Positions 14,073 through 44,898 of a stretch of DNA of 64,000 bases are shown here, piece after piece. Both the position numbers and the translations under genes were made by a program. The DNA is taken from NCBI RefSeq assembly GCF_000003815.2, contig NC_049987.1:16195390-16259389 (forward strand). The letters run 5' to 3'. The notes beneath the pieces are model-generated. The model saw only the letters and a program-made list of their open reading frames with translations, searched no databases and was not told the DNA's origin. The number at the start of each line of letters is the position of its first letter. The stretch's first letter is position 1. This DNA comes from Branchiostoma floridae. Its lineage: Eukaryota > Chordata > Leptocardii > Amphioxiformes > Branchiostomatidae.

Positions 14073-14582
14073 AATTTTCCACCATTTCACAAAAAAGTTT
14101 CCAACCATGATGTAAACCGTACAAAGCAGCTGGAAACATGAGGTAAATTGAAAAAAAAAATAACACATTCTAAGTATATGCTAATGTTACAGAATGCCAA
14201 CATCAATTTCACGGTCAAAGAAGATGTCAAATAACAAAAAAAATTCTATTGTTCTACATTCAATACGCTATATCTGGTCATTTGTCTAACCTTCCTGGGC
14301 ACTTAGATTTCATAATAAAGTTGGCCAAACTGTTTAGTTGCACGCTCGCATCATTTTTGGGGTTCCCATAGGATGTAATCCATATTTCAACATGGCCTTA
14401 GTTCAGTTTCTGGAGGTGGCCTACACCAGCCTTGTATTGAGCAACACCATTAAAAAAATATAAAATAGAAAGATGGAAGCAGTTATTGTGTACTAGTAGC
14501 ACAATAAGTTACATTTTCAAACTGGTACTAGTAGACTTGTGTGGCACACTACTGTGCTACATTGCTTTGAACCTGAATTTAA

Positions 14583-15626
14583 GAGTCATTGCACGAGAAA
14601 ACCAGGCAGAGGCCGGAAGATGGGGGTCGGCCAAATCGGTTCATACTTTGTATGTATGATAGGTATGTGGAACTATTAACAGCCATATACTTAAAACCCT
14701 CCAGCTATTTTCCGTTATGGCGTTCTGGGACCCCCCTCAGAGAACCTCAAAAAACCAACAATTTATGGCTGAAAATTACTCAAATTGCGATGGCTATCCT
14801 GAAAAATGTACATTAGATACGAACCTACCTTATATATTTTCATATAGCATGGGTCCTTAAGTTTTACAGATCAAAAGTTAAAGATGATACATCGAAGTTA
14901 AGAGGGTGTACTAGGGGGTTACCTGAACCACTGAAAGCAGATTTTCATCACTGTAAATTTTGGTGATTTTTAAGGCCCATTATCTGCTATACGCAGTGGC
15001 TCTGGTGAATGGTTTTACTGTTGCTAGATAGAGGAACATCTACTTATTCAAAAACAATCGTCATCTATTTGGGCCATACATAACGCGGGCCGTGAGAGGG
15101 GGGTCTTTATGGGGACTTTTCGAGTTTGGGGCTATAATAAATCGGGCAATTATATTATAATATGGGGTAAGTCACGGCAAATGTTTGTATAGTTGTTTGT
15201 AAACAATGTATAACTGTCAAAAATATTATGATTGATTAGTTATGTTAATTGGGCTCCACATGGGGGATATAAGGATACTGGAAACGGTATTTTGCCGATT
15301 TTACACGTTTTAATTATTGCTTTCTTATGTGATTAAGCTGGTACCTTCTGAAATCACTTCGTATATACCTATTTTGTAGTGCGCAACTGAAAAGGCTCTA
15401 CATGGGGGTTACCAGGACTCCACAAATGTGATACTATTTAATAAACAGGGCACATGGATGCATACCTACTTCAGAAATGTTGAAACAAGACCACAACAAA
15501 AGTCAAAATTAATGCTATTTTGGGATGGATACAAGTGCATCGTACTTTTGTTATTAATTACGCAATACAGTACATGTACAGCTATAGACAAAGTGCTGTA
15601 CACCAATGGCGTGTTAGTATACCTGG
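14583..15626 (+). repeat. Left terminal inverted repeat of the giant element
   Basis: About 1.04 kb, reading inward from TTAA. It is the inverse of 38,956-40,035, and similarity fades after GTTAGTATACCTGG. The 10-base motif GGGGGTTACC occurs at 14,914-14,923 and 15,404-15,413 and is kept at the matching places in the right arm. No coding frame is conserved between the arms. Confidence 0.9.
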
Positions 15627-16419
15627 TCCTGTTGATTTGTCTATGTGGATGACATGGCCAAATGGCCAAAAAGTTGCATTCATTATGAAATCAGGTGAGT
15701 TACTGTAGTCCGAAAGGAGGAACATTGACAAAACACGCAGATTATGATATACCAAACAACAGATTCTGATTTTCGTTCCTTCACATCTTCTTGTTTGTCA
15801 CTAAAATTGACTTTGGCATTCTAAGACATTGGCATACATTTGTCGATACAGTTGCAGCCTACGGCATATATTTGTTCATTTTGTAGCTGCTTTGTTTGAT
15901 ATACAATATGGTTTAATTTTTTTTCTTAATGTGAAAATGGCCAATAACTGACGTGAACACGGATGTCATCCAAAACAACTTGGCCTATAGTCATTAGTTA
16001 AAAGTAAACTCTATGGCAAACCCTTTACACATAGAGCCACATAATAAATCATACGATCGGCAAAAAACAAAAACACACAAGAAATTATACTTAAAAAAAA
16101 CTTTTAAAATGCATTCTTACAAAAAGAAAAGTTTACTTTTGTTGGACTACTGATACAATAAAGAACTAAGTTAAACCTTATCTGTAATTGCTAACAGATT
16201 CTTGTGAGACCTTAAACCTGACATACTCGTATTGCAATTGAGTAAAAAAACTCTTGAAAGCTTTTTTTTACATTTTAATTTTGTACAAATTGCGCAACCA
16301 AAACTGAAATGAGAAAAAAGGCAACTTGCACATGTGCATCTGCCAAGGATAGTCTCTAATGCCTGTATAAAAATAACTTTCCTTGTCACGGAGCCTGTAA
16401 TGCCACTGGGGGAAAGGGT
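15627..16419. other. Element interior between left arm and repeat array
   Basis: Non-coding, AT-rich. I see no match to the corresponding stretch of the right side (38,481-38,955). Confidence 0.5.
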
Positions 16420-17095
16420 ATCGGATGTAGCCATATTCGAGCAGGGATATTTGCGTATTTGTAACAAATGCTAGCGAATGCAAACGGATTCGAGTTGGAT
16501 ACCTAAAATATCCGAAATTTGGATTTTTTGCATCCGGAATGAAAAGACTCAAAAATATCCCAAAATGGGATTTTCCACGGATGCGAAGTCGTTTTTTTAG
16601 GGATTTCTTTGGATACCTGGAATGATCGGATCGCAAAGAATCCCCAAACGGTATTTCCCTCGGATGCGAAGTCGTTTTTAAAAGAATTTCTTCGTATACC
16701 TGGAATGAACGGGTCCCAAAACGGCCATTGCCACCTATGCGAAGTTGTTTTCATAGGAATTTCTTCGTATATTTGTCATGGTCGGATCCTAAAGAATCCC
16801 AATACGGAATTTGCCGCGGATGCGAAGTCGTTTTTATAGGATTTTCCTCGTATATTTGTCATGGTCGGATCCTAAAGAATCCCAATACGGAATTTGCCGC
16901 GGATGCGACGTCGTTTTTAGAGGATTTTCCTTGTATATTTGGCATGGTCGGATCCTAAGAAATTCCAATACGGCATTTGCCCCGGATGTGAAGTCGTTTT
17001 TTTTAGGAATTCGTCGTATTTTTGGAATAATCGGATCCTAATTAGTTTTGAAAAAACGGCTTTTGTTGCGGATACGAAATCGCGTCTTCGTTTAC
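16420..17095 (+). repeat. Left subterminal array of GGAT-containing units
   Basis: The best-preserved part, 16,600-17,050, is a tandem repeat with a unit of about 83-85 bp. Typical phrases are GGTCGGATCCTAAAGAATCC, CAATACGGAATTTGCCGCGG and GATGCGAAGTCGTTTTTA. Upstream (16,420-16,560) the units are looser but keep GGAT and CGAAT words. A related array lies in the mirrored position at 37.4-38.5 kb. Confidence 0.8.
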
Positions 17096-17238
17096 TTCAC
17101 ACATTCCTGAATATTAACGTTATTCTCACCTATACCTTCACCTCAGTAGGCAGATCCGACATGCCTATTGAGAAAATATTTATACTACTGTATGCCTATA
17201 AAATACATAGGAGTGAATGGATGTATGAATGATAAACC

Positions 17239-17445: not shown

Positions 17446-20400
17446 TCAGCCACTAGCCTCTTCATTCTCCTCATTTTCAAATGGACGTATTCCATCTTCC
17501 ATTTCATACTCTCCGCCTACTGACCAGTCACTTCCCTCTGACACCTCACTTTCCTCTGAGTCTGACACCTCACTTTCCTCTGACACCTCACTTTCCTCCG
17601 ATACCTCACTCTCTTCCTGTACCCCACTCACCCCACTCTCTCCCTGAACCCCACTCTCTCCCTGTACATCACTCTCTTCCTGTACCCCACTCACCCCACT
17701 CTCTCCCTGAACCCCACTCTCTCCCTGTACATCACTCTCCTCCTGTGCCTCACCCCCCTGCCCAACGTCTAGGTATTCCTTCCCTACAAAGTGTATGTCT
17801 GGCACATCTCTTTTACTAGGCTCGGTAGAGCGAATCCTTTTGTATCTAGATTGGGGGTTCTTTCTGATCACGGCTTCCACCCCTGGCTGGCATCTGTCAA
17901 TGATATCGGTGAGTCGCTTTGCCCGCCAGGATGGACGCCTGACCACCCATGTTTTCTCCTGCTCTTCGTCCGTTTCCTCATCCGACATGAGGTCAGGCTT
18001 GGCGTCGCTCAGGTACTTCAGGGATGCTGGACTCAGGATGTCCTGGCCGACCTTGACCCTGAGCTCCTTCATCTAAAAAAACAGAACAAATATGGTTTAG
18101 AACATTGGCATCAGAGTCATAGGCTTGGAATTGTGATAACCACAAAGTCCATCCAATCTGAGGACTATTATCAAATAATTAGCTAGAGAAAATCTAACAT
18201 TATGTTAACATTATGAGTAACAAAAATACTTTGGGGGAATATATTATCTTACGTGTTAGCAATTCTGTTTCAAAGAATGAAGTCTCTAAGTGTAATAAAT
18301 CGTTAGTTAGGAGTGGGGCTGGGTACTGGTTTGGCCAGACCGTTTTTTACCAGAACCGATTCGCAAGTTAAAAAATTTCAAGAAATCTATTGTATTTAGA
18401 CAATGTCACATCCCACTATTACTTTGGCCATGGAATTGGAAAATACCCATGAAACAAAGATGATTAGCCTACAATATATCAATATTCAATTCATTGTGTC
18501 GGTTCTAATTAAGTGAACAATAAAAATGCGCTACGAAAAAAAAACACATCAAATTTGCAAGACACAAGGTTGGTTCGTGCTATTGTGGAAAGTTCCTCAA
18601 CAATCCTCGTAAAATTTCACTCATAACGAAAAATCAGTGCTCAGAAAAAATAAGCCTGGGGGCAAACAACATTTCTTCTTTCTTGTGCATGTGTATTCAA
18701 TCCATATTTCCGAGTTTGAGGCATATCTATGTCGTATTCAAAAAAAGAAACTTCAGCGACCAACGAAAACAACAACAACAAGCAGTTATATGCATAGTGG
18801 ATGAATTGCATGGTTGCTACAAGGCGTTGTTTGGAGTTTTCGTGTGAAGTGATTGGCTAACATTGTTATATTCTTGTGTGGTTTGGTGAGAAACCACGAG
18901 ACTTGTCCGGCGATTCAAGATGGAGTTGTTGTTTTAATACGTCCGGCACAAAACCTTCTTTCTTTGGGCCACATTTCTGCCACTTAAACTCAGCCAAATG
19001 GATTGTATACATGCTCACAAGAAGGAAAGAAATATTGTATGCCCCATGGTTAATTATTCTGTTCACTGATTCTTGATTTAGATTGAAAATTTACGAAGAT
19101 GATTGAGAAATTTTCCACTCGAGCTAAGTATGTACCAACCTCAGCCTCTGTGTATATTGACGGACAGGACCAGGTCCAGACCTGAAGTCAGAACCAAAAC
19201 CTCTGGCCTGAACTGGACTTGAACCCGATCAAGCAAAAGGGTATCCACCCCTAGTCAGTAGTTAAGAATATTAAGATAACGCTTTTCCAGCTACATTATT
19301 CAATGATGGAGAGAGACGAAAATCCTTACCCTAGTCCGTCTGTTGACCCGCTTGGTCTTGTCTTGTTCTTCCGCAGACGTCCCATCCCTCTCACTCTTCT
19401 CTGCCCGCCGTATGTTGTACTGTATGTTCCTGCATGCCCCTAAAAAGAGAGTATGAATTATAATCCATGATCACATAGGAATATTCTAGTATGCATATTT
19501 TCATTCACCAATTTTCCATTTGTCTCTTGATATACATGTGTTTAGTCTTACACTGCATTATACTTCTTCAGCAGCTTTAAAACATGTCAAATATGCTTGT
19601 AAGACAACCAAGGAAGCATGTTCGAAGGAAGTGGAATGAATTAACCTAAATCAAGTGCTGAACATAAGGCAGTTTTTCTTTTTATCTGTGAAGATTCTGA
19701 TTAACTGGTTTTACCAGACTGCGCCAGACTTACTATTAGGAAACTAACTTTTGACAGACAACACCTGTGACTTACTTCTTATGGCTCTGTCGGGGTATGG
19801 GACATCACCATCCTTGATGGCCTGAGTGATGCGCCTGGTCACCTCCTGGTTGTGTTGGCCTTCCATGAACCTTTAAAAATAAAGTGTATGTTAATCCTAA
19901 AAGCATCATAGAAGTCTTTGGCATAAGGTATGGCCAGTAATGGATCATCATTCAATGCATATCCCTGCGGTGAACACCCACCGTGGTAGACCTACTTTGA
20001 ACGTGTGCATTTTTTTCAAATCTTTTCATTACTGATATCTTGTTGAAATCCATATACATGCAAGCTTATTTTAATTACAGTGTTGTGTCTGAGACACCTT
20101 TTTCACATGCTATTTGGAAGATCACAGCAATAATTTGTAATTCATAACCTTTCATAGCTAGTATGTCAAAGATTCTCTGTAAACAAGCATGACATTTTTG
20201 CAATGCAATGAAGTGTAATATCATATTTTACTTACTTTTGATCCCCACGGTAGGTCATGTCCTCCCCCAGTGCCTTGTAGATTCGCTTTGCCTCACGCTG
20301 CAAAGATCCAATGAAACAAATTTAAGTCTTGCTATCACATTTCATACATACATGTTATCTTTCCAGCTTTAAAAGGCAAAGGCAATAAATAAAATTCCCT

Positions 20401-23400
20401 GAAATTACATTCATCCATCATAATATTGCTTGATATAATGATAATAATAATGATAATAATAACATATACATCTGCATAAAAACACCTTTCTGATGTTATT
20501 GAACATCGAACCATCCCATCAAAAATCAAAGTTCTTGGTCCCTCTCATGCCACCAGGTATCAAGATTAAACAGTGACTTAAGTTAATGGCTCATAATGTC
20601 ATTAAGGTCATGAACTCCTTTCAGCGATGAAGGACAGTTTTTGGAATTGGAGGTCAAACTCTGTGTGCTTCACCTCGTGATGAAGATGAATGTCGCAGTG
20701 AACATGGCAGCCGAGCTGGAACTTTTGAACTTTTCAATAGCCCAGGTAAACAAATAAATTTAAAGGTGGCAAAATGGACAGCAAACATCATTCACAAAGA
20801 TTTCAAAAAATTGTGGAAAGATTGACATAACAGGTGACTATCACCTTTTCAAGATGTCAACTCCGAACATTAATAAAGGACTGCGAAAGTTTCTGCATTT
20901 TTGGTACATCCCTAATCTAAGCTTGGTACTCATTTCCCCTTAGTGAAGTGAAGTGAAGAAAGTCGTGTTAAGTGCCTTTCCCAAGGGCACAAGGTTGTTG
21001 ACATAGCAGGATCCGAACCTGGGACCACTTGGTCCTGAGCCAAACATTCTACTACAAACCTACCATTATATTGTCTTTGATTGTATATAATCAGGATGAG
21101 AAATTGAACAATGTTTTTCACAAGCTGTAGTGACAGGTTCCAAGTAGGCTGCCATGTTCAATGTGACATCGTGAGAGCGTATAGTCACCATTTTTTTTTA
21201 ATTACACCAATCTAATAACCTAGTGGGAAGATTCAAGAGCTGGAGGTATAATTTTGGATGGCTCAATAACATCAGAAATGTTTGTATTCCACATTGTATG
21301 TTCACTGAAAGACACTATTCTAATGTCACAGATACTAAGAAACTGTTGTAGTTTGGTGTAATATGCCTTTTAAATCTTAAATGATACCAGATTTAAAAGC
21401 TGACATTTTGAGGTTTTACTACAGATAAAACATTTGCCAAATACTAATCAGTTCAGGGACTGATTGGGCCTCCTCTCGGAGAGGCGTGACCTGAGTGAAA
21501 GGGTACAAAGAATACTTGACAAGAAGTACAAGTGTGTGTGAAGTATGAACAATGTAATAGATTTGACAAGCGAGCAAACTTACTACCAGTTCTTTAGAGG
21601 GTTTGGGGGTTCTGGGAGAAGGAGGGACGACTCGAGGGTGAGTCTGGTTCTGGTTCTGGTTCTGCTGAGTGAGCATATCCATTAGCTGTCTGGTACTCTC
21701 CCTGTTCTCCTCCTGACTGTCCTGGACATTTTTGGAGAGTGTCCTGACCTCTTTAGTTACCTGATGTAGAATCCTGGAAAACAGGCAGAGATCAACATAA
21801 AGATTGCATAGTCAGTCATACCATAGGCAATTAATATAGACAGAAGATAGGCATACAGGGCTCTAGCCAGCTAAAAATTTATATCGGTCAGCCAGTTAAT
21901 TCCTATTGTTTCGCAAACCGCGAAAAATTAACTGTTGATACTACAAAGTTTTTGAGAGAAAATAAGATGCCACGCGGACGTTTTGTAATCTAACTTTTAT
22001 ATGAACAACTTTTAAAGTCGAAACATGCGGGTCGTGTGCACGGGGAATCCCCGCGACCCCCAACAGTGCTCTTGGCAGTGCGACGGAATGAATTCATTCA
22101 TAGAAGAAATGTAGGACATAAAAACAATAAGTATAACTTTGCTTTCGTTCTGATATGAGTTTTGAGGCCATAAAATCTCCTGAGTGGCACAAATCTAGAA
22201 GATAAGCAACACTCGAAACTTGGCAGCAACAAACTCAACGGTTCAAACCGGATTTGAACCGGACAATTACGTCTTAATACTGGCGACAAGGAAATCCTCC
22301 TTACATTGTAAGAAAAATCTAACTACTAGTACAAGTAATGTTTAGATCCGATGAAAGTTAATAGAATGCACTATTCCAGGGTTTGGAAGGACTGAACTGT
22401 GGTAGTAAATGTGACATTGATAAAATAGTCACTTTCTTTCCTCAAACAACCTCTGCTTGGGGTATGATGTATGCCCCAGGCACAGATGGGGAAGGCCTGA
22501 CTTTACTGGCTATCTAGATCTAGTCCATTTCATGAATTTAAACTTTGACTTGAACTTTCAATTACATTTTATCAGAATTTTGACCACTTAATTGAGGGGC
22601 ATCGCTTTGCTGACCAGTTTATGAAAAACTCTGGCATTGACCTTGAGGGTCAAGCAGTTTGTCACAGTTTTTTTATCATTCAGCCAAGTGGACTGACTTG
22701 GCTACATGGATTTTTGAACCCAGGCATTTTTCAACTGTCACACTCATAAGGGTTACTGTAGTTTGTTATGTTTCGTGTGTGAAGAGGTGAAGGTTGTTTA
22801 CCAGAAGATGCCTGGCGGAAATATCTTTTATCTATTACTTGAGAAGTCGAGAGATCTCTAAACAACCTTACAGGAGAAAAATGAATGTATGTTTTGTGTG
22901 TTTTGTTGTCTTTTCAATCACACTTTTACATTCTGTCGGTGGTCGCAGCGTGTGGTATTTTACTTTGAAAGGAATGCACCGGAACGCGCGGGGGGGTGGG
23001 GGAGGAGAGGAGATGGCGCCCATAAACCCCCTAGTGTTTTACATATGGGGACAACACCAGAGCTATACCGACAAAGAAGGTTACGGCCACACATGTCTTT
23101 TGTCCTTTTGAAACAAGAAAACTGTTATGCAAATTTTGTTTCGACTATTGTTTCGACTTTTGACAATTCACCTCGATGCCTGGTACCAGTGGTGTAACGT
23201 TACACACAGAGCAGTCATTGTTGGATCAATTATCACCGGGTCTGCTCACCGCTTCACACCCTTTGTCTAGAACGTTTAGCAGGCAAACTTGATCAAAGGC
23301 AAGTTTGCAAAATAAAACAAACAATTCAATATTCATTTCATTCTGTTCGGCACGACTTGTGAAATAATTCATGCTTCTAAGGGTGAAAATACCAGAGTAG

Positions 23401-24019
23401 GGTTTTGAATAACCATCCACATGACGAGACTGAACAAATACATAATTCTTGTGAATTGGATCGGGTGAAAATGCATAAAAGTGTAAATTTCGAGAAACAG
23501 CGCTTAGAACAAATTGAAGAAAGATGAAGAAAAAAACATGCACAAAAATATCTAACGTTACTCCCGACCGTAGTCTGAATGGCCTGATGCGTTTGTATAA
23601 TCCACCTCCAAAGTTTTTCAATTATGATACATTTCAAGTTTAACAGTTCAAAAATCAAAGAAGAAAAAAAAAGTAATCTGACACCGCTACTAAAAATACT
23701 ATAACGTTATAACTTACTTCCACATGTCGTCAATGGTCGGTTTACGGCCATGGTTGTCGTTCGGCTGGTCCCGCGGGCTTCTGCTGTTTCCAGGTAGCCT
23801 CGCCCCGTTCCCGATGCCTCTCCCCGCCCCGACCCCAGCGCCACGGCCCGGCGGTGTGTTGTCGGTCGGCTGGTCCCGCGGGCTTCTGCTGTTTCCATCC
23901 AGACCGTGCCGGTCTGATGGCGTCGTTCGTGCCATCTCCGCCCCGTTCAGAGCCGGAGCGCGCGGAGACTTGTTCAGTGCGCCTTTACCTTTGCGGCCAC
24001 TTTTCTTGGACTTTGGCAT
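17446..24019 (-). CDS. Gene A: C14orf93/DUF4616-like protein, six exons
   Basis: Exons on the - strand: 24,019-23,718, 21,773-21,584, 20,297-20,236, 19,871-19,777, 19,439-19,330 and 18,072-17,446. All borders are GT-AG and the phases join without error: 1,386 nt, 461 aa. The N-terminus is basic (MPKSKKSGRKGKG), a likely nuclear signal, and contains GNSRSPRDQP twice. Residues 101-135 look coiled-coil. The core (about 165-310) has RAIRRACRNIQYNIRRAEKS, then MSDEE (282-286) and TWVVRRPSWRAKRLTDI. This order of a helical basic block, MSDEE and W-V-x-R-x-P-x-x-R-A-x-R-L-T is what I recall from human C14orf93. The tail is a Ser/Glu-rich acidic repeat. The function is unknown. It starts 373 bp from, and divergent to, the transposase, and lies inside the inverted repeats, so I infer an accessory gene of the element. 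The exon model is strong; the family name is moderate. Confidence 0.8.
20925..21065 (-). repeat. tRNA-derived SINE copy
   Basis: Read on the - strand it has a box-B-like CCCAGGTTCGGATCCTGC, then TTGTGCCCTTGGGAAAGGCA. It shares these with the copies near 40,080-40,245 and 54,030-54,290. It lies in an intron of gene A. Confidence 0.65.
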
Positions 24020-24392
24020 TGCTGAGTTGGTCTGTTATGAACCACAAGAACCTGAAATTCTGGAGAAATGCAGTCGGGAGATCACGGCCGAGTGGTGACT
24101 CTGCAGGCTCGCCTCTGCAATGATTATTTTCCCAGGGAATTGGACCAGACCCCTGGGGCTTAGTGTTGCAGTATTCGAGTAGAGCAGAGTTCTGATTGGT
24201 CATCGGAAAGATGACAGCAGAGCAGATGTGAATCAAAGTAGTTTACCGACAGTTCTTGTACATGTGCTAAATAGTTGGAATCCACCGGGCCATTCAAATT
24301 GATATTTGCTGTGAAATGTCACAGGGCTTAGAGCGTAGTCTGTCTAGTCAGTTCTTGTCCAGTGGTTCGTGTGGTTGTGGAGGTTTATAGAC
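24020..24392. promoter_or_regulatory. Shared divergent promoter of genes A and B
   Basis: A spacer of 373 bp separates the ATG of gene A (-) from the ATG of gene B (+). It contains CTGATTGGTCATCGG at about 24,192, an inverted CCAAT box, and GC-richer sequence on the gene A side. No TATA box is obvious. Divergence from one short spacer would give linked expression. Confidence 0.5.
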
Positions 24393-24682
24393 ATGCCCAG
24401 GCGAAAGGGACAAACTGGAAGCGAGTACGACAGAAATCGTTGGTGCGCGCATTGTAGCGACCTCATCCCAAAATCGACATACTACGACCATGTCAGAAGG
24501 TACGGGGATGATGCCTGTGGGAACGGCGATCAGCCTTGCACAAAGAGGGTAAGTACCTTGGCTGAAAACACTCTCTTTATTTTCTTTACAAAATTAGACT
24601 GCCACATAGATAACAGTTAATACAGCTGCGTGAGTATTGTCTAAATGATTGTGAAACATCTCCTCGCTAGACCTCCTCTCCC

Positions 24683-24812
24683 TAATCTCCAAGCAGATCC
24701 TACGGTGCCATAAGATAGTATCAAAGCTGGCCAAGGAGTGTAGCCGGCCAAAGGAAGTCAAACGGTGGGTTTGATACTAATATTACGCCACAGTAGGTCT
24801 GCTTGGAGATTA
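24683..24812. repeat. MITE, TAATCTCCAAGCAGATC family, copy 1
   Basis: Terminal inverted repeats TAATCTCCAAGCAGATCCTA and its inverse GGTCTGCTTGGAGATTA. It lies in intron 1 of gene B. A related copy is at 27,095-27,264. A C-homopolymer run follows directly. Confidence 0.75.
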
Positions 24813-26294
24813 GACCCCCCCCCCCCCCCAACCGGACTAATACCCCATAGACTCGAGATTTCTTAGCCGGAACTAGCAGAAGGACCATCTTGTGTCCAGG
24901 CTTCGAGGATCACTGGACAAATACTAGCATAAATTGGACAAATAGAAAGAATAGTTTGATAGAGGAGCCGGCCAGCCAGAAAGGATTACTAGTATGTATG
25001 CGAGGACGCATGCATTTATTGCCTGCATATGCAAATAATAATCAATAGGCTTTAAAATCCTTGGACTTACCAAGTGCTCTTATAATTTGGGGATGGATTT
25101 GCTTTGATTTTATAGTATGAATTTAATGGAATTTTTTCCATTTAACAGTTGACAATCTCACAATGATGATGATGATGGTAATAAATCTCACAGTACATCA
25201 GTATGGAGCTGCAGAAATATGTATTGATGCTGTATTGATATGTTATACTTAGTAATGGGCAGAAGTCAAATACTTGAAATGTACTGGTCATGCTGTATGT
25301 AATATAAATGTATGTGACATTGTGTGTCTTCTCCTTTCTTTACAGCAAAAGTTAGCTGGAGCAACAGTTGAAGTATCTCAGGACTTGATGTCAGGTGACC
25401 CCAGCCTATCCTCAGAGTCAGATGTGGATGACACAAGCACCCCCCAAGTGATGTCAGAACTGAGAAAGGTAATTTTGATCTCCTTTAGACCCCATTCACA
25501 CTAACAACGAGTGGATTAAACAACAATCTGGGTTAAAATTTGCAATCCGATTGAAAAAAATGCCTTCACACTAATTTTTAGACAGTCTTAAATTATCAAT
25601 TGCCAACACTCCAAGCCATTTCTGCTCCTCTTGTTGTGGCTTAATTGGAAATTTACATTAAAATCATATCTTCCTGAAAGGGAGGTCACATGATGGTGAT
25701 CTCATGGTCACCTCCAGTTGCTTTGTCTAGTGTTTGTGAATTTTTTTTTAGATATTTGATATTAGCACTAGGTGTTCTATGAAGGCAGCCAACCCTATAA
25801 ATTTGACCACTGGGTGCAAAATTTTTTTCTTGATTCTCACCGACTGCTTTGCTTCTTGCCGCGAGTAGCTCATTCCCGGCATATTCAAATCTTAGCATAG
25901 ACCTGTGCAATACCTTTGGCTTGTATCAATTTGGTTTTAAACTTTGCCAGACCTTCTTCAAAGTGCGCATGGCATCTTTTACACTAAACTTGCATAGACA
26001 CCATTGTCATTCATGCATAATTTATCACCCCTGTGTGCTTCTGCCCTACCTAATGTCTCCTTCTTTTATTCTCAACTGCTGTGAAATGCCCTATTATCTT
26101 TGCGAATCTACCCTTGCAAGGTGAAACTTGCCCCTATCTGTGAAATAGTTGCCTCTGTTCATTTTGTGGGAAATTTTAAAGATTGTCAACTGTTGTTTCT
26201 GCAGTGGTCCCTATTTTGCATCCAAATTTGTTATGTCGTATTCTATTGTCCTTTCCCAAATCTGTTGGTTTAGGCAACAGGTGACAACTTTGTT

Positions 26295-26787
26295 AGGCCT
26301 AGGAAAAAAAATGTTGTGTTTCCTCAAGGAGCTTTTATCAAAAGCTCCTTGGTTTCCTGTTTCAGTCCTGAAAAAATTAGGGTCGGTAGGTAGGGATTAT
26401 CTTTTTTTTTTCTTGTATTTTTTTTTAGGCTGGCCAAAATTCTAGTGATACATATTTACAATACAGTTGAACAAAGTAAACTGAAATGTATGATGACACT
26501 TGTCTTTTCATGTCAAACTTTAATTTTGTGCATGATAGATACATTTATCCTTCATTAGATGGCACTTGTCTTTCAATGTCAAACTTTAATTTTGTGCATG
26601 ATAGATACATTTATCCTTCATTAGATGGGACAAGCAGTGTTTTACTTCAATAGGAAGCAGGCCAAATAAAAATTCTAACTGGAAGCTATGTGACTCCACT
26701 GCCCACCCAAAAAAAAGTCTAGGGTCGGCAGTTTTTTTTAGGGTAGGTAGGGAAACAGGAAACACAACATTTTTTTTCCTAGGCCTT
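26295..26787. repeat. Inverted-repeat element with TAGGCCTAGGAAAAAAAATG ends
   Basis: The left end TAGGCCTAGG, A8, TGTTGTGTTTCC is mirrored at the right by TAAGGCCTAGG, A8, TGTTGTGTTTCC read inward, followed by a shared GGTAGGTAGGG region. Near the left end, AAGGAGCTTTTATCAAAAGCTCCTT forms its own small hairpin. A 67-bp unit is tandemly doubled within it (26,497-26,629). It lies in intron 2 of gene B. Confidence 0.75.
26497..26629 (+). repeat. Two tandem copies of a 67-bp unit
   Basis: Each copy contains TGTCAAACTTTAATTTTGTG and CATTTATCCTTCATTAGATG. They differ at only a couple of positions, so the duplication is recent. Confidence 0.85.
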
Positions 26788-27264: not shown

Positions 27265-28195
27265 TTAAAATCACAAAACCCACAAATTATAGAAAAAGTG
27301 TGACTTGTCTTCCTTAAAAAAAGACATCAAACCCAACCTATCTTGATCAACACTTTAGCATTCCAGTAGTCCCTTTGTATACTAAGTATTTATCAAAGTC
27401 CATTGTTACATTCATATTCCCTTTATAGTATATGATCTTGTTTGTACCATGTTCTTGCACTGATTAGCCTATGGGCATGAACTTGCAACTAAACTTTCAA
27501 TGCGTTTTTTCCTACCACTGTAGCAGTCACACCTTCCTGATAAAGTGGCGAACTCTGATGCACAAGACTGCAGTACTAGTAGTCAACAGGACATGGAAAC
27601 AGAGGACAATGGACAAGCAACAGAGGGGTCTTCTGGGAACTCTGACTCTGAGTCAGACTGTGAGGTAATTCCAATATCAGCTTGTCTGATTTTGTTTAGA
27701 ACATCTAATTCTAAGTTACGCATTTGTGAGAAGGGGGAGGTTGTCAGAGGGATTTCAAGCGTTTTTTGCCAAGATGCCAGACTGTTTTCAGGGCTCACAC
27801 AGACAGCCCAGGCTTTAGAGCCCATATGATCCCCAGAATGGATTTTAGATTAGAAGTGTCACTAGTTGATGACCCCTGTTTCACTGAATGTCCATTTTGT
27901 TATTGTTTACCATTCAGTATCATTATCATCATTGTACTTCATTCATGTATCTTTGCAATTAGCCTTCGGGTATCGATGATTTTGCAATAAAGAATATTAT
28001 TTTTACCTATATAGTCAGTGTAACACAAACTCTGCTGTCCGGGGCTGTAACTGGCCCCTCCACGCGGAGGCTGGCAGTTGTGGGCAGGCTGCTATAAGCG
28101 AGATTAAATCAGGCTAATTTTTACCCCAGACTCAGAATTCAGGTTGGCTGCCAACTCTTGTGGGGGGAGGATAGTAACTATCATAATTCTACTAT

Positions 28196-28397
28196 CATAA
28201 TTCCACCAAGTGCCATAATACCGTCACCTCAAAAAACGTTAGTATAGAGGTCTTCCCAAGATTGTCTTGAACACTAAATGTTAAATATCCTAAATATAAT
28301 ACAATTCAAATATTTAGGTGTTGAAGACAATCTTGAGAAGGCCTCTATAACAACGTTTTTTTGAGGTGGCGGTATAATGGCACCTGGTGGAATTATG
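28196..28397. repeat. Hairpin MITE, CATAATTCCACCA family, copy 1
   Basis: The ends pair as CATAATTCCACCAAGTGCC against CATAATTCCACCAGGTGCC, continuing through ATACCG-CACCTCAAAAAA and AGGCCTCTATA. It is about 200 bp and lies in intron 3 of gene B. Confidence 0.8.
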
Positions 28398-29565
28398 CAA
28401 ATGTATGTTACCTACAGTCAGTATTTTGAAGCTCACCCTATCTAGGTGGGGGATCATAGCACCTTGTATAATCTGTAGACTCAGGCTGCTCAATTTCAGT
28501 AGAACTATACGGTATTAGCCAGAGATGATCTGTCAAGATTTCCATGGAAGAGAAAAATGGATGGTGTCACAGAATTAAATTTCATTGAATCTAGTTAACC
28601 CTCCAGTACTAGTGTTAACTCTGAACGTCATATCAGAATCTGGGATGTGGAGACTTTTTTAAAGTGGATAAAGAAATTCTGATCCAAATTAAAATGTTTA
28701 ACTCAATAACTGTAACTAACTTTGTTTTATTTTTTTGGGGGTGTGATCAAAGGGGTCTAACTTCTAACATGGTAAGGACATGAAGAGTAGAGGTTTTCCA
28801 GAAAACAAGAACACAGATCTTCTGATAAATGTAGTAGCATAAAAAAAAATATAACTGCAATGCATTTATCATAACTGCCCTGAGTGTATCTTGGAATGTT
28901 CAAATCTGCAGGAAGGATATCTTTTCTTTGACAGATAAAGAAATACTAGATTACTGAATTAAAGAACTGTCATAATGAGTTGACTGACAAAATTGATTTG
29001 TCTGCCTCGATACAAGGCTGGAAATACTTGTATCAATGTATGTAACGTTATACACTTTTGTGTTCCCCAAATTTGAGCTGTGCACCTAATCTTCGAGATA
29101 TTGTGTAAAATGTATAATGTTATATGTATGTAGGGCCATGTATGGTAAAGGTACCATTGATTTGTACGCTAGTGTACAGCATGCTGTTGACATTTAGATT
29201 TGTCAGAAAAAATGCTAAAATCTTTGTTGTAATACCGAGTTTGAAATTACTCAAGTTGTATTCCAGCTTTTCAGGTGATGTTTTACTTTTGTGCAACCAG
29301 AATGTTTCTGAGCACCTAAAAAATTTTACAACTCAAACTTCTGACTGTCTAGAATTTGAAGTTAAGGCTTCTTTGTATCCCTTTAAGCCTGCCACAGGTA
29401 TTTTGCAATGCAAAAGGTGCTAATTTCTACTGGCTGAGCTTAGGAGACGAGAAGAAGTTAGATCAAACAACTGAACTGATACTAGTGATTGACAAGTCTG
29501 CCACACAGGCAGGTGTGGAAATTAGCACAAATAATTTTCAAAGAAAGATACAAGGAATGTAAGTT

Positions 29566-29665
29566 NNNNNNNNNNNNNNNNNNNNNNNNNNNNNNNNNNN
29601 NNNNNNNNNNNNNNNNNNNNNNNNNNNNNNNNNNNNNNNNNNNNNNNNNNNNNNNNNNNNNNNNN
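29566..29665. other. Assembly gap (N, 100 bases)
   Basis: Exactly 100 N, in intron 3 of gene B, so an extra small exon here cannot be excluded. Confidence 0.99.
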
Positions 29666-32600
29666 GAAAATGAATTGTGCCCTGAGATGCTAACTGTCTT
29701 TTTAGCTGATATAATTAATTTATTTAAACAATGTGTTTTTTCTTCTTTGGTTTGTTGTGGCAAAGTGGAGCAGAGCCCCAAGCTCAATTAATGATTGTTT
29801 ACAATGGCAGTCATTTGTACTAATACAAGCAGAAGTATTGGGCTGCTTTACACAAATGGCAAAACAAATGACTTGTCCTAAAAATGTCTTTCAGCACGCT
29901 GTGCTTTTTTGTCCACATAAAAAGATCTCCTGAGGTGCCACACTGCAGCGTGCCGCAGCACGTCATTTTGGTTTTTACGCTTACCTTTTCTGTAGTAAGG
30001 GACTTCTGGCCGGCTGACTCCCCTAGTGTACTATGACTCTATTTGTACAATTTCTACAGGTCACCGATATACAAAGCCTGGTAGAGACTAGGCAAAAGTC
30101 TGTACTACCTAACTTTAAAAGTCTGTTTTACTTGAGGAGTATTGTTCTACTTGACTATGAGGGTAGTTTAAAATTTGAAAAATCTCAGCGTAGAAAGGTT
30201 GGATGGAAATTAAGTTCTTGTATACAATTTATTTTCTTTTCACAGAAAGAGGACAAAGAGGATACTGAAATATGGAGTGATGCTGAGATGGAAGAAGATA
30301 CGCTGGACTTTCAACGTGGCACAGACATGGAGGACATCAATGATGCAGGCCAAACAGAATCAAACATGTTTATGCCTCTAATCTGTTTATTGTTGCTACT
30401 GCTAGCCAAGTGGAAGTCAGTTTTCACAATATCAGATTCAGCTGTAGAGGTACTTTTGAAGATTATTGGGAGTATTTTGATGGCCATAGGAACGACACTG
30501 TGTATGGAAACTCTGAAGAGCATTGCTTTGGCTATACCAAGAACCATATATATGTTTAGAAAGAAACTAGGTCTGGATAGAAATGATTTTGATCGCTATG
30601 TTGTCTGCCCTGTTTGTGATTCTGTGTATCCAGTTGAGGATGCAGTAGTAACTATTCGTGATGGCAACGGTAGAATTGTAAGAAAAAAATCAGCTAAATG
30701 TTCTCATGTTGAGTTTCCTAGGCATAAGCAGAGAAAGTTTCGAAAGCCATGTGGAACCATTTTGATGAAGACTGTCCTTGGTAAACATCAAAAAGAATTC
30801 CTATATCCCAAACGTACATTCTGTTATCGCAGTGTAGTAAAGTCCCTTGAGGACATGTTGCAGAGGCCAGACTTTATTGAGGCCTGTGAAGCATGGAGAA
30901 ATAGAAGTACACAACATGGAACTTACACAGATGTGTTTGATGGTCAAATCTGGAAAGACTTCCAAGTGGTCGATGGTGAACCATTTCTTGCTGAGCCATG
31001 TAACTTGGCTCTTATGTTAAATGTAGACTGGTTTCAGCCTTATGGTTTCAGCCTTACAAGAACATCAAAGAGTCCATTGGCATTATGTATTTGTCTGTAA
31101 TGAATCTCCCAAGAGAACAAAGGTTTAAAGAGGAAAATATCATTGTGGTTGGAATCATTCCAGGTCCACATGAACCCAAACTACACATCAATGGTTTTCT
31201 CGAGCCTTTAGTAGAGGAGCTACAAAAGCTTTGGAAAGGTCTATGGCTGCATGATAGCTCTTTGGTCAAAAAGCAACGTTACCGTGCTGCTCTGTTATGC
31301 CTTGCCTGTGACATCCCTGCAGCCAGAAAAGTTGCAGGTTTTTATGGCCACATGGCAACGAAAGGATGTAGTAAGTGTCTGAAGTCATTCACTAGAGATT
31401 GTAATAATCGTGTAGATTATTCTGGGTTTGAAGAGGAGTTTCCTCTCAGAAGTCACCAGGACCACTGCAGGTATGCTAAAAGGGCAAAAAGAGCAAATAA
31501 TAGAGCAGCAAGGGAAAGAATTGAAAAAGAGTATGGTGCTAGATATAGCTCCTTGCATGACCTTCAGTACTTTAATGTTATTAATATGCACATTGTGGAT
31601 GTTATGCATAACTTATTGGAGGGTACAGCAAAACGGGTTATGCAAGTGTGGAGAGATACTGGGGTGCTGTCAAAGGAACAGTTCTGCACACTGCAGGCTC
31701 GAGTTGATGAAATGACAGTACCCAGCAACATTGACTCCAGCATACCCGCAAAGATAGAATCGTCTTTTGAAGGATTTACAGCAGCCCAATGGAAATCCTG
31801 GGTTTGCATTTATTCATTGTTTGCATTGAAAGGAGTAATACCTGAGGAAGATTATAATATCTGGAGGTTGTTTGTATCTGCTACAAGACTTCTGTGCTCT
31901 AGGATTATAACAGAAGACCAACTTAATGATGCCCATCGCTGTCTGAAAATGTTCTGCAATGCGTTTGAAGGAAAATATGGAAAAGAATGGTGCACTCCTA
32001 ACATGCATTTGCACCTCCATTTAAGGGCATGTATTCAAGATTTTGGGCCTGTTCATGCATTCTGGTGCTTTTCCTTCGAACGTGCTAATGGATCCCTTGG
32101 CGACTATCATTCCAACAATCGACACACTGAAATAGATATGATGAGAAAATGGCTTATAGACTGGAAAGTTGCTTCCAAGCAGAACGAAGGATCAGATTAT
32201 GATGTAGATTTTGCCTCATTTTTCGATAAACCTGTTTCAAATAAGTCCATCTTAACTGCAGAGCAGGTAAACATGTTGAAAGAATTAGCCCAGAATGATG
32301 ATCTACAGCACAACAATTTTGAAGTAAATGATCAGTGCGAATCTATGTTACCACCAGTCAAGAGAAGCAGTATGTCAGTAGAGGAGAATGAGGCACTATT
32401 AGCCATGTTTCAGGTACTTTATCCCCATGAAGTTGTTAGGGTTTCTCTGATCCACAATTACTGTGACAGATACTTGTTAGGAGGTTTTCTACTGTGTCCA
32501 TCTGAATATAGAAAAGGATCCTCTTCATGTATAGATGCAAAATGGTTTAACCATAGGCAGATAACTGGTGAACCTATTATCGACCCCAGTGCTTCCCCCA

Positions 32601-32943
32601 GACCAGGTCGCATTTCTAAGATATGGAAAGTTTTTGTGTTCTTGAAGGCAGAAGAAACAGAACGAAAGATTGAACACACAGTGGCAGAAGTCAGGTGGTT
32701 CAAGGTACATGGGAAACGGTACTTCTATGGGATGAATAGTTCCTGTACAGTTTGGGAGGAAAGCTATGAACCCTGGTCCTATGCTTCCTTCCTTCCCATG
32801 AAAAGGATTTTGAATCAGTGTGCTTTCTGCACATATAAGGTGCCATTCAACAACAGATGGGAAGAAACTGTCAATGTTGTCTCAACTTTAACGTCAGTAA
32901 GGTGTGTATAATCTCGCACAAATAATTGTTACTGTTGAACTAG

Positions 32944-34456: not shown

Positions 34457-36698
34457 TTATTCCACAGCCTGGGGAGAACCCTGCTGGCACAGACTTGAAA
34501 GCCATGCACTTAATGGCTTTTCATTAATATGCTCATCTAATGTTTTATAGTTATCCTGATTATTAACAAATGCACGGTGTTTTTCAGAGTTTAGATGAAA
34601 TGTGAGGTCATAGTACTGTTCATTGCAACACTCACAGTAGGATGGACATTTTCTTGTGACGGTATTTCCTGTCTTCTTGCACGTGGACCTGTTGGGATTT
34701 TTGTCATTACCATGAAGGAAAGACAACGATGTACATGTGCTCCATTCCCTATTCGTGAACTCTTTATATAATGGCCTATACTTCCCTGACAAATCTTCAA
34801 CCTTTACGAATGGTGACTTGAGTGTTCTTGTCTGTGGATTTGGCAGTTTGCTTTCTGCTGGCCTAGGTGGCCCACTGTTCGATAGTATGGAGATATCAAG
34901 TAAGGATGTGTCGAATAACTGTTTCCCAGAGTTGCGCAGTTTGTCAAAATCTATCTGAGGAGTTAGAGATGCAAGTATACCCTTTCTATCAAAAGCAATA
35001 CATGTCGTGTTGGTATCTAAAAACATAACATTTGCTCCACCCTTAGAAAGTATGAACTTCTGCAAGGCAGCAGCTTTCCCTTTAGCCATTCCAACTTCAT
35101 AAATAAAAACTTTTTCATTGCTTAAGCATGTGTTATCATCCAATATGTTTATACCGCTGGTGGATGTCCCATGTCCTTGCTCAGATGAAGTCTGTTCACA
35201 GTCAGTGGATGCATCGACAAATGGTGGCAGGTGTGCTTGAGATGATGACTCACTGGATACTGATTCCCTGCAGTCTGCATTGAAGCTCTTACATGGAGTA
35301 GGAATATCCTCCACATCTGTGCATTGTTTGATGGTAATATCAGAAATTTCTTTGCTCTTGCTAGGTTTATGCAAAAACTTCAAGCCAACATAGTGGGTAA
35401 TACGTTTACTGCCCAGGCGACGTTTCTTGAACTGTCCATGAAAGTGATGGTGAAGAATTTTGGCAAAAGTGTTTGGTTCAATGCCAGTGCCTGTAGAACT
35501 GCGAGTTTCACTGAGAAATCCATGAATGCAGTCCTTCAGCTGTAGACCACATGTCACATCACTTGTTGTGGAGATGTTGTCTTGGATCCTAAAAAAGCAG
35601 AACATTCCTTATAAGAAGAGCATACCATGCTTGCAGATGAATTTGTGGAGTAAAATGAGGTTTTAGTAGATGTTTAAACATTATCTCATATAATAAACAG
35701 CGCAAATCTTATGAATTTTCTGTCACACTAGCCCTATATATATTTCAAGGTACACCCTAGCATATAGTGATAAATATGACAAATACTATAATATTACTCT
35801 AGTAATCAGAATCAGGGTAAGCCCTACCCTGGGGGCCATCCGAGATCGAGCAGGCTAGGACAGTTTATTCGGTAGCCCAAGACAATTAGGTCCGCCGAGC
35901 TCCTATTAGCACCCCGGCCCCGGGGAGTTTAAGCCCGATTAGGGGTAACGATAACCCCCGGAGCGCTAATGTGATGTCGGCGGGCTGACTGCCTTGGCTC
36001 CCCGAACAAATCTCGCGAACAAATCTGCTAGCTACTCGGTTCTGTCTGACTCCCAGGGTAGGTAAGCCCCGGGCCTGAGCATATTATTAAGTTTCCCCCA
36101 GTAGATAGAAGGGCCAGGGCAGCCTGAATATCCAGTCGGCGGCAGTGCTCAAGGTGGCCGAAGAAGCAAGTCCGAAGCTTCGGGAGATTAGCGCGGCCTG
36201 CCTGCCGGTGGCCTGGCTAAGTTCCTTCGGCTTCCATGGCCGCCAGTATAATAACAGTTTATTCTCATGCACTGTGGCCCATATAGACGGACAAATGTAT
36301 ATGTATAAATCATATCTTGAATTGTGGGGTGTCCCTTCAAGCGGGGGTGTTGGGTTTCCCGCTGTAGGAGGCCCCGAGCGCAAAACTACCGAGTGCCATG
36401 GTCGGACCCGGCGGGCGGCGCACAACAACAGTCCTGAGAGGACCACCCAATACAGTCGGTAAACTGGTTACTGTAGCTTGACGGCAATTAAGCTCATTCT
36501 AGGGTAAAAAGACCACCACTGAAAAGACGTCGACTCGACGACTCGAGCAAAGCGTCTGAAATAAGACTAATTATTATAAATAATATAGCGAGCACAGACA
36601 CACATGTAGAGATTGAATATCTAATGTTAACCGCACAAAAATAAATCGATCGCTCCTTACCACTTTAGGCACTGTCGGTTGACAGAGTTGGAAAACAT
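34457..36698 (-). CDS. Gene C: RFX-type DNA-binding domain fused to Dbf4 motifs, two exons
   Basis: Exon 1 is 36,698-36,661 (13 codons, donor GTAAGG). Exon 2 is 35,588-34,457 (acceptor CTTTTTTAG). The join restores a Trp codon and gives 1,170 nt, 389 aa, without a stop. Residues about 10-86 match the RFX winged helix: QCLKWIQDN, NTFAKIL, KKRRLGSKRITHYVGLK. A Ser/Thr-rich linker follows. Residues 168-212 (SNEKVFIYEVG, LQKFILSKGGANV) resemble Dbf4 motif N, a BRCT-like fold. Residues 272-287 (PFVKVEDLSGKYRPLY) are Dbf4 motif M, which in Dbf4 contacts Cdc7. C331, C334, H344 and H350 with EKHRAF form the Dbf4 zinc finger (motif C). Normal Dbf4 has no RFX domain. The gene lies inside the right arm of the giant element, so I infer it is element-borne rather than the host DBF4. 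Confidence 0.85.
35818..36460. repeat. GC-rich insertion in the gene C intron
   Basis: The part 35,818-36,067 has short inverted ends (CTACCCTGGG and CCCAGGGTAG). The GC-rich part to 36,460 has a different composition from its AT-rich surroundings. No gene recognised. The insertion enlarges the single intron of gene C. Confidence 0.45.
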
Positions 36699-36773: not shown

Positions 36774-37480
36774 GTTGGCAAGTTTAGCTGACCACTTCCA
36801 GTGCCGAAAATCTTTACATACTCTTTGCTCGCCTTGGGCGTCGCGGACACACGTAAAATACGCAGGGATGCTGCATGTTGTGAGTGCGCCTTCTAGCGGC
36901 GTTCATAATTTCTACAACAACCAACACATCAGCTGTACATTACCCAGAAGGCATCTCTCCACTGGACGACACCACGGATGCAAAGAAAACCAAATTCGTA
37001 TATTTAACGTATCCCAATATTACTAGTACCCATTGGCAAGTTTAGCTGACCACTTCCAGTGCCGGAAATCTTAACATACTAGTACTCTTTGCTCACCTTG
37101 GCCGCCGCGGACACATGTAACACACACACGGAAGGAACTAATTATTTCACTTTGTCTTCTCGCTACCAAACTTTGACGGTCTGAGAAAATTTAACCTGTT
37201 CTCGGAACTAGATGTTCACTGTCGCGGCAAAAAGCTTAAGTCTGTGATTTATTTGTTATCAGCAATGAAGTTCAATGTTACAGTCGTCACCGTGAAAACC
37301 GTGAACATAACAGCACATTAAAAAAAACAGTATTTTGCTACATGTTGTGCGTGCGCCGTCTAGCGGCGTTCAAAATTTCTACAATCACCAACACACCAGT
37401 TGTAGATTACCCAAAAAGCATCTCTCCTATGGAGGACACCACGGATGCAAAAAAAAAAAACAATTTGAATATCTAAGATA
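36774..37480 (+). repeat. Direct duplications upstream of gene C
   Basis: TTGGCAAGTTTAGCTGACCA occurs at 36,777 and 37,033. A second unit with TCTAGCGGCGTTCA, AATTTCTACAA and GACACCACGGATGCAAA occurs at about 36,880-37,000 and 37,340-37,455. They lie between the gene C start and the right array and may carry its promoter. Confidence 0.7.
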
Positions 37481-38480
37481 TCCCACGATGACCTACGAGG
37501 CACTAAAAGCCAGAAAAACAAACAAACACTTGTCTCGGATCCCAAAGATTACAACGCTACCACAGTGGCATCCGATGGAACTGTTATGAAAAGAGAAATA
37601 ATAAACTTTGAATATGGAAGACCCATGGAATGATACGACAAGTAATATGTTTGGCATTTTTTGGTATCCATGCCGCTTCCGTTCGGAGGTTGCAAATTCG
37701 TATTCTTGGAATTCGGCTGCATCCGAGGCGTTTTGCGGGTGCGAAAAAAAAGCAGATGTGGATGTTCAAGGCATACCAAGATTGTCATAGGGCATTGCTG
37801 CAATGGTGTGGATCCAATGGATGCACCAGAAAAATACAAAACATCCTTACGAATTCCAGTGTATCGTGAAATGTCACACTTACATGGACACAGCACACTG
37901 TGGTATGCGATGTATAAAAAACAAGGAATGATACGCCCACATCAGTACAAGCAACATTTTGCTGATAAACAAGAGTCCTCACCACGTATTCTTTCGTTTA
38001 TGTTAGAAGTAAGTACCCATACGAATATGTTTGAATCTGTAGGTGATTTAAGGATACCAACGAATGCGTCGCGAATGTGTTTGGGATCCGTTAGCATCCG
38101 CCAGGATGTTGCAAATTCGTATTCTTGGTATCCGTCTGCATCTGAAGACTTTTCGTTGTAAACAAGAATCCTGACCACGTATTCTTTAGTTTACTCTAAG
38201 AGTAAGTATCCATACGAATACAATGTTTGAATCCGTTAGTGGCTTACAGATACTAACGAATCCGTGATTATAAGTAAGTATCCATACGAATGCCGTGTTA
38301 GCATCCGTTTGTATCCTCCGAGAGTTACGGATACCAACGAATGCGTTGCGGATGAAAGTGGGATCCGTCATTTTTTGGGATCCGTGATGGTTTTGGGGAT
38401 CCGTCAGCATTTGTCAGCATACGTCAGCATCCGTCAGGTGTTGCAAATCGGAATCCGTCAGCATACGTCTACATATTCGG
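37481..38480 (-). repeat. Right subterminal array of GGAT/CGAAT words
   Basis: Irregular repeats rich in GGATCCGT, CATACGAAT, ACGAATGCG and GTCAGCATCCGTCAG. The regular 84-bp unit of the left array is not kept, but the word content and mirrored position match. It lies about 1.56-2.55 kb inside the right end. Confidence 0.65.
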
Positions 38481-38955
38481 TCTTTTCGTCTAGTGATGGG
38501 CAGATGAAAATGGCCCGATACACGCATTTATTGCTTTAGCTTTAATGATTCGAGGCCACATTGGGCTTGAACAACAGCTTTGCACCAGCTACCTTAACTA
38601 GCTGCCTGGGCCACTTGACAATCATCAGCTTTCTGGCCAGACAAAGGAAGGGTAATCCAAGGCACGTGACTGTATGAGTGCAAGTTGATTTTTGTAATTT
38701 GTTGCTTTTATTGAATTTGTAGCATACTTTTCAGCAAAGTGCTTTATCACCACTCCAACAAAAAACAAAAGTGAACTGTCCTTTTGGTGAATATGCGTTT
38801 CGACGGTTTAGCTATTTGTAATTTCTTGTGAGTTATTACATGTACATGTATTTTGCAGATCTAACAGTAACTGTTCCCTTCTAAAGGCGTCTCACATATA
38901 CAGGTTTTGTGATAGGCTTTGTTTTTGGTTTGTCCTTATGTTGATACATGAATAG

Positions 38956-40035
38956 CCAGGCATACTAACCCCACATTTGATGGACAGTACTTTGTCTATA
39001 GCGGTATAACTAAACTGTACCCTACTGTATACCGTAATATTGATGAAAAAAGTAGCATGCACATGTATCCATCCCAAAATAGCTTTAATTTTGACTTTTG
39101 TTGTGGTCCTGTTCTTGAACTTTCAGCATTTATGAAGTAGGTATGCATCCTATGCCCCTTTTATTAATTGTACCATAGTTGTGGAGTCCTGGTAACCCCC
39201 ATGCAGAGCCTTTTCACTTGGGCACGATAAAGTGGGTATATATAAAGTGATTTCATAAGGTACCAGCTTAATCACCTAAGAAACCAATGATTAAAATGTG
39301 CTAAATCAGAAAAAATCCGTTTCCAGTATCCTTATATCCCCCATGTGGAGCCCCAACTAACATAACCAATCAATCATAATATTTCTTAAAGTTATGCATG
39401 GTTTAAAGACAACTATACAAACATTTGCCGTGACTTACCCCCATATCATAATATAATTCACCCAATTTATTATAGCCCAAAACTCGAAAAGTCCCCATAA
39501 AGACCCCCCTCTCATGGCCCGCGTTATGTATGGCCCAAATAGATGACGATTGTTTTTGAATAAGTAGATGTTCCTCTATCTAGCAACAGTAAAACCATTC
39601 ACCAGAGCCACTGCGTATAGCAGATAATGGGCCTTAAAAATCACCAAAATTTACAGTGATAAAAAATCTGCTTTCAGTGGTTCAGGTAACCCCCTAGTAC
39701 ACCCTCTTAACTTCGATGTATCATCTTCAACTTTTGATCTGTAAAACTTAAGGACCCATGCTTTATGAAAATATATAAGGTAGGTTCGTATCTAATGTAC
39801 ATTTTTCAGGATAGCCATCACAGTTTCAGTAATTTTCAGCCATAAATTGTTGGATTTTTGAGGGTCTCTGAAGGGGGTCCCAAAACGCCATAACGAAAAA
39901 TAGCTGGAGGGTTTTAAGTATATGGCTGTTCATAGTCCCACATACCTATCACACATACAAAGTATGAACCGATTTGGCTGACCACCATCTTCCGGCCTCT
40001 GCCTGGTTTTGCCTGGTTTTCTCGTGCAATGACTC
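38956..40035 (-). repeat. Right terminal inverted repeat of the giant element
   Basis: The inverse of 14,583-15,626. GGTAACCCCC (inverse of GGGGGTTACC) lies at 39,191-39,200 and 39,685-39,694. One 10-bp unit (AAACCAGGCA) is doubled here and single in the left arm. Confidence 0.9.
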
Positions 40036-40079
40036 TTAACTCAATCGGATTCCTATCATAATCTGAGAAGGATGTACAT

Positions 40080-44870: not shown

Positions 44871-44898
44871 TTATAGCAGAACCAAGCCAACAGCCGTC

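Follow-up and report, generated by a model that had tools for sequence, protein, structure and literature searches.

Can a single mobile element account for a 25.5-kb segment of the Branchiostoma floridae genome in which a transposase gene and two further genes lie between long inverted arms, and if so, how does it relate to known transposons and what would the additional genes do for it? The segment measures 25,453 bp between two TTAA tetranucleotides (positions 14583-40035) of a 64-kb stretch of DNA, hereafter the window, and carries a gene for a tnp2/Transposase_21 transposase, a C14orf93/DUF4616-like gene and a gene that combines an RFX-like domain with DBF4 motifs (RFX-DBF4). The explanation that we favour, with a probability of about two in three, is one large DNA transposon with a tnp2-family transposase of RAG1/Transib-like predicted fold; that the stretch is, at this locus, one element holding all three genes is very probable. 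It is best read as a transposon whose transposase is of the CACTA family but whose ends differ; since its tips lack the core that marks the termini of CACTA and animal TRC elements, it is not filed as a CACTA element.

Inverted arms and subterminal arrays

The left border reads TTAA followed by GAGTCATTGCACGAG (from 14579, the 15-mer starting at 14583 on the forward strand), and the right border reads the reverse complement of GAGTCATTGCACGAG followed by TTAA, ending at 40039; the exact 15-mer occurs in the window at these two tips only. An earlier note on this DNA, made from the letters alone, had described inverted copies of about 1.05 kb starting directly after TTAA at both borders. In agreement with this, a BLAST search of the window with the arms, at E values of up to 0.01, aligned them with each other at 89-91% identity over 1,019-1,080 columns and returned for each arm no match beyond itself and the other arm, so that lone short copies, a possibility raised in the same note, were not seen within the 64 kb. 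Inverted repeat blocks of 348, 205, 195, 90, 75 and 42 nt, 86-98% complementary, lie in 14579-15558 and 39039-40039, and two GGGGGTTACC boxes are found in the left arm (14914 and 15404). Scored in blocks of 100 columns, the identity of the arms ranges from 87 to 100 over the outer 800, is 84 and 81 in the next two blocks and drops to 65 at 1.0-1.1 kb and to 28-46 farther in; the best stretch is columns 400-500 (100/100 identical), and the first 100 columns are less identical mostly because the right arm has 10 extra bases, AAAACCAGGC. Sharp inner arm ends were visible neither in this profile nor in self-BLAST, and the arms are therefore read as long terminal inverted repeats (TIRs) and not as two short elements.

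Behind the arms, the same note had pointed to GGAT-rich arrays in mirrored order. The motif CGGAT was counted in a left (15600-17250) and a right (36900-39030) stretch, together 3,782 bp, and in 19,649 bp of the interior and 38,549 bp outside the element, N runs included. The left stretch holds 14 forward and 3 reverse sites and the right one 13 mirrored and 5 opposite sites (13/18 alone, p = 0.048), giving 27 of 35 sites in mirrored orientation and 8 the other way (binomial p = 0.0009, with the left sites partly non-independent owing to a tandem array), which bears the claim out; elsewhere, CGGAT occurs 6 times in the interior, counted over both strands, and 40 times outside the element. The longer form CGGAT[GC]C has 21 sites in the subterminal stretches, namely 9 on the left (8 forward, 1 reverse) and 12 on the right (9 and 3), versus 1 in the interior and 2 outside. 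Since the left sites are partly tandem (83-bp unit) and the right ones dispersed, the two sides share the motif and not a long sequence. The mirrored subterminal motif provides new support for one symmetrical element.

Two further patterns were set aside. The GAGTCATTGCACGAG 15-mer was found in 25 stretches of viral contigs, with one match each, which by our own estimate is chance for 15 bases among millions of contigs; the half-site GTTACC, considered as an RFX signal, occurs twice per arm (4 of the 17 in the window), which amounts to two independent events and is unconvincing.

The transposase gene

All nine modelled introns across the three genes are bounded by GT...AG and the exon frames join, which upholds the earlier description of three multi-exon genes between the arms. 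The transposase gene has four exons, all of which are matched by database proteins (tblastn), and on its sequence the product is a member of the tnp2 (CACTA/EnSpm) protein family. The tnp2/Transposase_21 domain scores 75.0 bits in P0001, a near-identical, full-length B. floridae protein (cut-off 28.6), and 56.3 bits in the window frame; a B. lanceolatum relative is 83% identical. Three parts can be distinguished, namely an N-terminal CxxC motif, a DDE core and a C-terminal BAH-like fold, the last seen only in the model of the intact relative P0001. Conservation of the candidate catalytic residues is 62/68 for D401, 67/68 for D491 and 67/68 for E747, and the order of strands and helices fits an RNase H fold. 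The designation as a DDE transposase is thus supported by domain and residues, but this copy or its assembly carries a 14-bp tandem duplication, overlooked earlier, that disrupts the reading frame immediately past what is likely the first catalytic Asp. Among the chains compared, the solved folds nearest to the predicted model are those of RAG1, Transib and ProtoRAG, with 8-12% identity in the listed alignments and 6dbo among the RAG matches, and the CxxC...HxxxH arrangement resembles that of the RAG1 zinc site.

One of the transposase introns contains a 100-bp N gap (29566-29665), and a 43-nt repeat forms an inverted pair in two of them (24683-24725 and 27221-27263).

The C14orf93-like and RFX-DBF4 genes

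For the two remaining genes, the gene models and the DBF4 motifs named in the earlier note held, but the RFX and DUF4616 matches stay below the Pfam cut-offs. The C14orf93-like model has 461 open codons and encodes a protein with a basic N-terminus and an acidic, repetitive C-terminus. Five of its six exons are matched by database proteins, including P0123 of B. lanceolatum (tblastn); exon 1 is unmatched and supported by frame and splice signal alone. PF15394 (DUF4616) aligns over 104 residues with 25.7 bits, 1.3 short of the cut-off of 27 (E = 7.6e-6). The three relatives that passed among 7,993 scored candidates are all from Branchiostoma. The start codons of this gene and of the transposase gene lie head to head across 373 bp, a putative shared promoter. 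Two database records join such sequences to transposase-like pieces. The B. floridae gene model P0124 contains C14orf93-like exons (94 and 70% identical to the window) joined to a Transposase_21-like piece that is 38% identical to P0006 over 74 columns (E = 8e-4, composition correction and masking off; Pfam E = 0.24). This hints that both genes may lie together elsewhere; in the window they are on opposite strands, so the record is not counted as proof. P0125 of B. lanceolatum combines a C14orf93-like piece with a stretch of weak Mutator-type similarity (E = 0.016).

The RFX-DBF4 model is represented by the B. floridae record P0121 (100% identity over 389 aa) and comprises an RFX-like domain (aa 10-82) and DBF4 motifs M and C (aa 262-368). 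The latter region aligns to DBF4 in the CDC7-DBF4 structure (4f99_B, E = 1.2e-11), with 18/36 identities to DBF4 in motif M and 18/44 in motif C; zf-DBF scores 51.5 bits versus a cut-off of 24.8, and the Pfam model of the motif M region alone 14.3 of 25 bits. The zinc finger has kept its Cys and His positions, which hold the zinc ligands in DBF4, and it is with motifs M and C together that DBF4 stimulates CDC7 kinase. The N-terminal BRCT of DBF4 had no Pfam or PDB sequence match up to E = 10 in the 90-residue fragment before motif M. RFX (PF02257) is matched at E = 0.021 in the whole protein and at E = 0.022 in a B. belcheri protein that shares the RFX-like part (62%). Only 2 of 1,417 candidates passed as relatives, one of them being the gene itself.

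Upstream of the RFX-DBF4 start, the stretches 36772-36989 and 37030-37456 are duplicated (84-94% alike), perhaps as a duplicated promoter.

Features of the proposed lancelet element, with positions in the 64-kb window
Feature	Position	Strand	Remarks
Left TTAA	14579..14582		putative target-site duplication; inner TA alternative
Left terminal inverted repeat	14583..15620	+	about 1.0 kb, fades inward
Left subterminal region	15960..17073	+	CGGAT motifs, 83-bp tandem array 16557-17038
C14orf93/DUF4616-like gene	17446..24019	-	exons 24019-23718, 21773-21584, 20297-20236, 19870-19776, 19439-19330, 18072-17446
Intergenic stretch	24020..24392		373 bp between head-to-head start codons
tnp2/Transposase_21 transposase gene	24393..32911	+	exons 24393-24548, 25346-25468, 27524-27664, 30246-32911
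14-bp tandem duplication	31029..31056	+	breaks transposase frame in this copy or assembly
RFX-like/DBF4-like gene	34457..36698	-	exons 36698-36661, 35588-34457; 389 open codons
Right subterminal region	36975..38457	-	CGGAT motifs in mirrored orientation, dispersed
Right terminal inverted repeat	38991..40035	-	extra 10 bp AAAACCAGGC near tip
Right TTAA	40036..40039		border

Nested repeats and surroundings

Two related foldback repeats, similar to miniature inverted-repeat transposable elements and with CCATAATACCG at their ends, are nested in the element (28196-28397 and 32943-33093), the second shortly after the transposase stop codon. A dispersed repeat, about 71% alike among its copies and possibly a short interspersed element, is present in a C14orf93-like intron (20925-21055), some 65 bp beyond the right border of the element (about 40105-40228) and farther right (54057-54134). 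To the left of the transposon, reverse transcriptase frames (RVT_1) occupy 2722-3846 and 5069-7849, with N gaps at 3942-4078 and 5299-5800. To the right, there are a small foldback with inverted arms of 53 and 43 nt (40375-40471 and 40820-40915), a 690-aa BTB-BACK-Kelch (KLHL-type) frame about 4.7 kb from the element (44761-46833) and a 242-bp unit repeated 1.9 times with 91% matches (59260-59714). Scanning the window for Rfam families and tRNAs gave no hits.

Proposed mechanism

In the proposed mechanism, the transposase would pair and cut the inverted ends, and the CGGAT[GC]C arrays, by analogy with TNPA of plant CACTA elements, would be landing sites for an accessory DNA-binding protein encoded by the element, for which the C14orf93-like protein, basic at one end and acidic at the other, is a candidate. 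The RFX-DBF4 protein might sit on element DNA and bring or activate the host kinase CDC7, with the outcome that element DNA would fire replication early or that the transposition complex would be tied to S phase; a cut-and-paste element that is copied early and then jumps into DNA still awaiting replication could gain in copy number. The BAH fold is also present in ORC1, and the BAH-like tail of the modelled transposase might help the element to read and steer replication origins. It is doubtful that the RFX-DBF4 gene works through CDC7, our estimate having been lowered because the P0121 record represents one contig and a B. lanceolatum relative was not found. More doubtful still is the full proposal of a cut-and-paste transposon that encodes its own CDC7 activator, tethered through the RFX-like domain and timing the element's own replication relative to transposition; we know of no element of such a replication-controlling kind.

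If the favoured reading is true and CDC7 is a target of the DBF4-like protein, this would be a mobile element with a dedicated DNA replication switch, and the old question of S-phase copy gain by cut-and-paste elements would become directly testable. Even without a CDC7 role, the combination of 1-kb ends, a TTAA-type target and a transposase of the tnp2 family would widen the known range of this family in animals, and the element comes from the same genus as ProtoRAG, its transposase having a predicted fold closest to RAG1 among the solved chains.

Weighing of the explanations

Several observations weigh against the favoured reading. The unity of the element, proposed in the earlier note and supported by the mirrored subterminal motif, is known from one locus only. 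With this single copy, TTAA, taken by that note as the target and indeed present at both borders, may also be read as TA plus a terminal A; the tip letters are GAGTC after TTAA or AGAGTC after TA, the latter requiring two flanking bases to match by chance (about 1 in 16). The tips lack the CACTA core of plant elements and the CCC core suggested for animal TRC elements, reading GAGTC instead. The transposase of the window is frameshifted, and D587 is conserved in the same proportion as D491 (67/68), the DDE triad being our own assignment. A near-identical database record for the 461-aa C14orf93-like model was absent among the 7,993 candidates, the best relative being 54% identical. As for RFX-DBF4, PF02257 reached E = 0.0014 in the fragment with 19.7 of 27 bits, below the gathering score; the fold prediction is poor (predicted local distance difference test score, pLDDT, of 31); and RFX X-boxes (GTNRCC, 0-3 bases, RGYAAC) number zero in the window. 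The sole B. belcheri relative among the 1,417 candidates has a gene model without motifs M and C, and B. lanceolatum supplied no relative among them, though the transposase occurs in that species. Finally, the P0121 cluster consists of one contig, and P0001 (contig of 352,688 bases) and P0121 (25,441,410 bases) lie on different contigs, so that the intact transposase copy may lack an RFX-DBF4 gene.

Part of this evidence is also what would be expected if the core consisted of the transposase and the C14orf93-like gene, with RFX-DBF4 as a passenger that takes no part in transposition, being either a host gene that was captured or a retrocopy; this we regard as a credible minority view. Nearly all of the RFX-DBF4 protein, M and C included, is encoded in one exon, as after RNA-mediated capture, and host DBF4 genes have many exons; the single contig behind P0121, the near lack of passing relatives, the finding in B. 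lanceolatum of the transposase but of no RFX-DBF4 relative, and the duplicated DNA upstream (36772-37456) point the same way, whereas the 389 open codons, the retention of motif M and of the zinc-finger Cys and His, and the RFX-like part common to B. belcheri speak against it. Rather unlikely, and a little less so than a CDC7 role, is an RFX-DBF4 protein that serves as a TNPA-like accessory factor on element DNA, with its DBF4 part contacting other proteins or DNA and CDC7 uninvolved: an RFX-like domain is present, and plant CACTA elements require a second DNA-binding protein that is very diverse among elements (passages of PMC2613891), but the best-matched part of the protein is precisely the one with which DBF4 stimulates CDC7.

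The two remaining explanations concern the element itself. Its ends could be those of a Kolobok-like or other TTAA element whose transposase is supplied elsewhere, with the tnp2 transposase as internal cargo; TTAA and 5'-RR termini are Kolobok marks, three species of Branchiostoma are reported to carry KolobokP (passages of PMC9587614), and the element starts with GA. Such an origin is nevertheless distinctly improbable, given arms without inner ends, the subterminal motif repeats described for tnp2-type elements (passages of PMC2613891) and the failure to find another transposase domain (Kolobok, piggyBac) in six frames at Pfam E <= 0.01, where Pfam may lack a Kolobok model. Very improbable, in turn, is an inverted duplication or a pair of neighbouring insertions bracketing resident genes: a single locus with nested repeats and a gap inside would allow it, but exact TTAA at both tips, mirrored arrays behind the arms, the transposase gene between them and no third arm copy in the window speak for the one large DNA transposon that we favour.

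Comparison with known systems

No element of this kind was found in the literature covered, most subscription papers and Repbase being outside the search. Viral contigs gave 12, 0 and 3 pattern-matched stretches for relatives of the transposase, RFX-DBF4 and the C14orf93-like protein, respectively, none of which was confirmed. With DBF4 itself, the RFX-DBF4 gene has motifs M and C in common, whereas its N-terminus is RFX-like and a BRCT was not detected by sequence; with the C14orf93/DUF4616 family, it is the 104-residue match below cut-off that is shared, and here the gene sits between transposon ends. Pfam holds a piggyBac model, and the piggyBac transposase domain was not matched in six frames at E <= 0.01; the TTAA at both borders, if it is not TA plus a terminal A, would fit a piggyBac target. 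RAG2 likewise had no match in the six-frame Pfam scan of the window, a scan of limited sensitivity that failed to pick up the RFX-like domain and detected DUF4616 at E = 0.0065 only.

TTAA borders and a 5' start with GA would fit Kolobok elements, the TA alternative fitting the same letters, whereas KolobokP has direct repeats and the arms here are inverted (passages of PMC9587614). ProtoRAG is described with 5-bp duplications and CACTATG tips (passages of PMC8289069), as against TTAA borders and GAGTC tips. Closer are SmTRC1 and the animal TRC elements, which, in passages of PMC1636069, likewise combine an animal Transposase_21 transposase with terminal inverted repeats and spliced transcripts, the introns here being modelled ones. 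They are, however, about 5.2 kb long in Tribolium and 9.2 kb in Aedes, with TIRs of 10-54 bp, a suggested CCC core and 2-bp direct repeats, while the lancelet element has 25.5 kb, TIRs of about 1 kb, GAGTC tips at TTAA and three genes. In plant CACTA elements, TNPA binds subterminal repeats, and Tgmt* (20.5 kb) shares with the lancelet element a tnp2 transposase, subterminal motif repeats and a large size (passages of PMC2613891). Tgmt* and En/Spm differ by their 13-bp CACTA tips and 3-bp duplication, and the same passages mention no RFX, DBF4 or C14orf93; Tgmt* also has a second, presumed DNA-binding product, a position for which the lancelet element offers two candidate genes.

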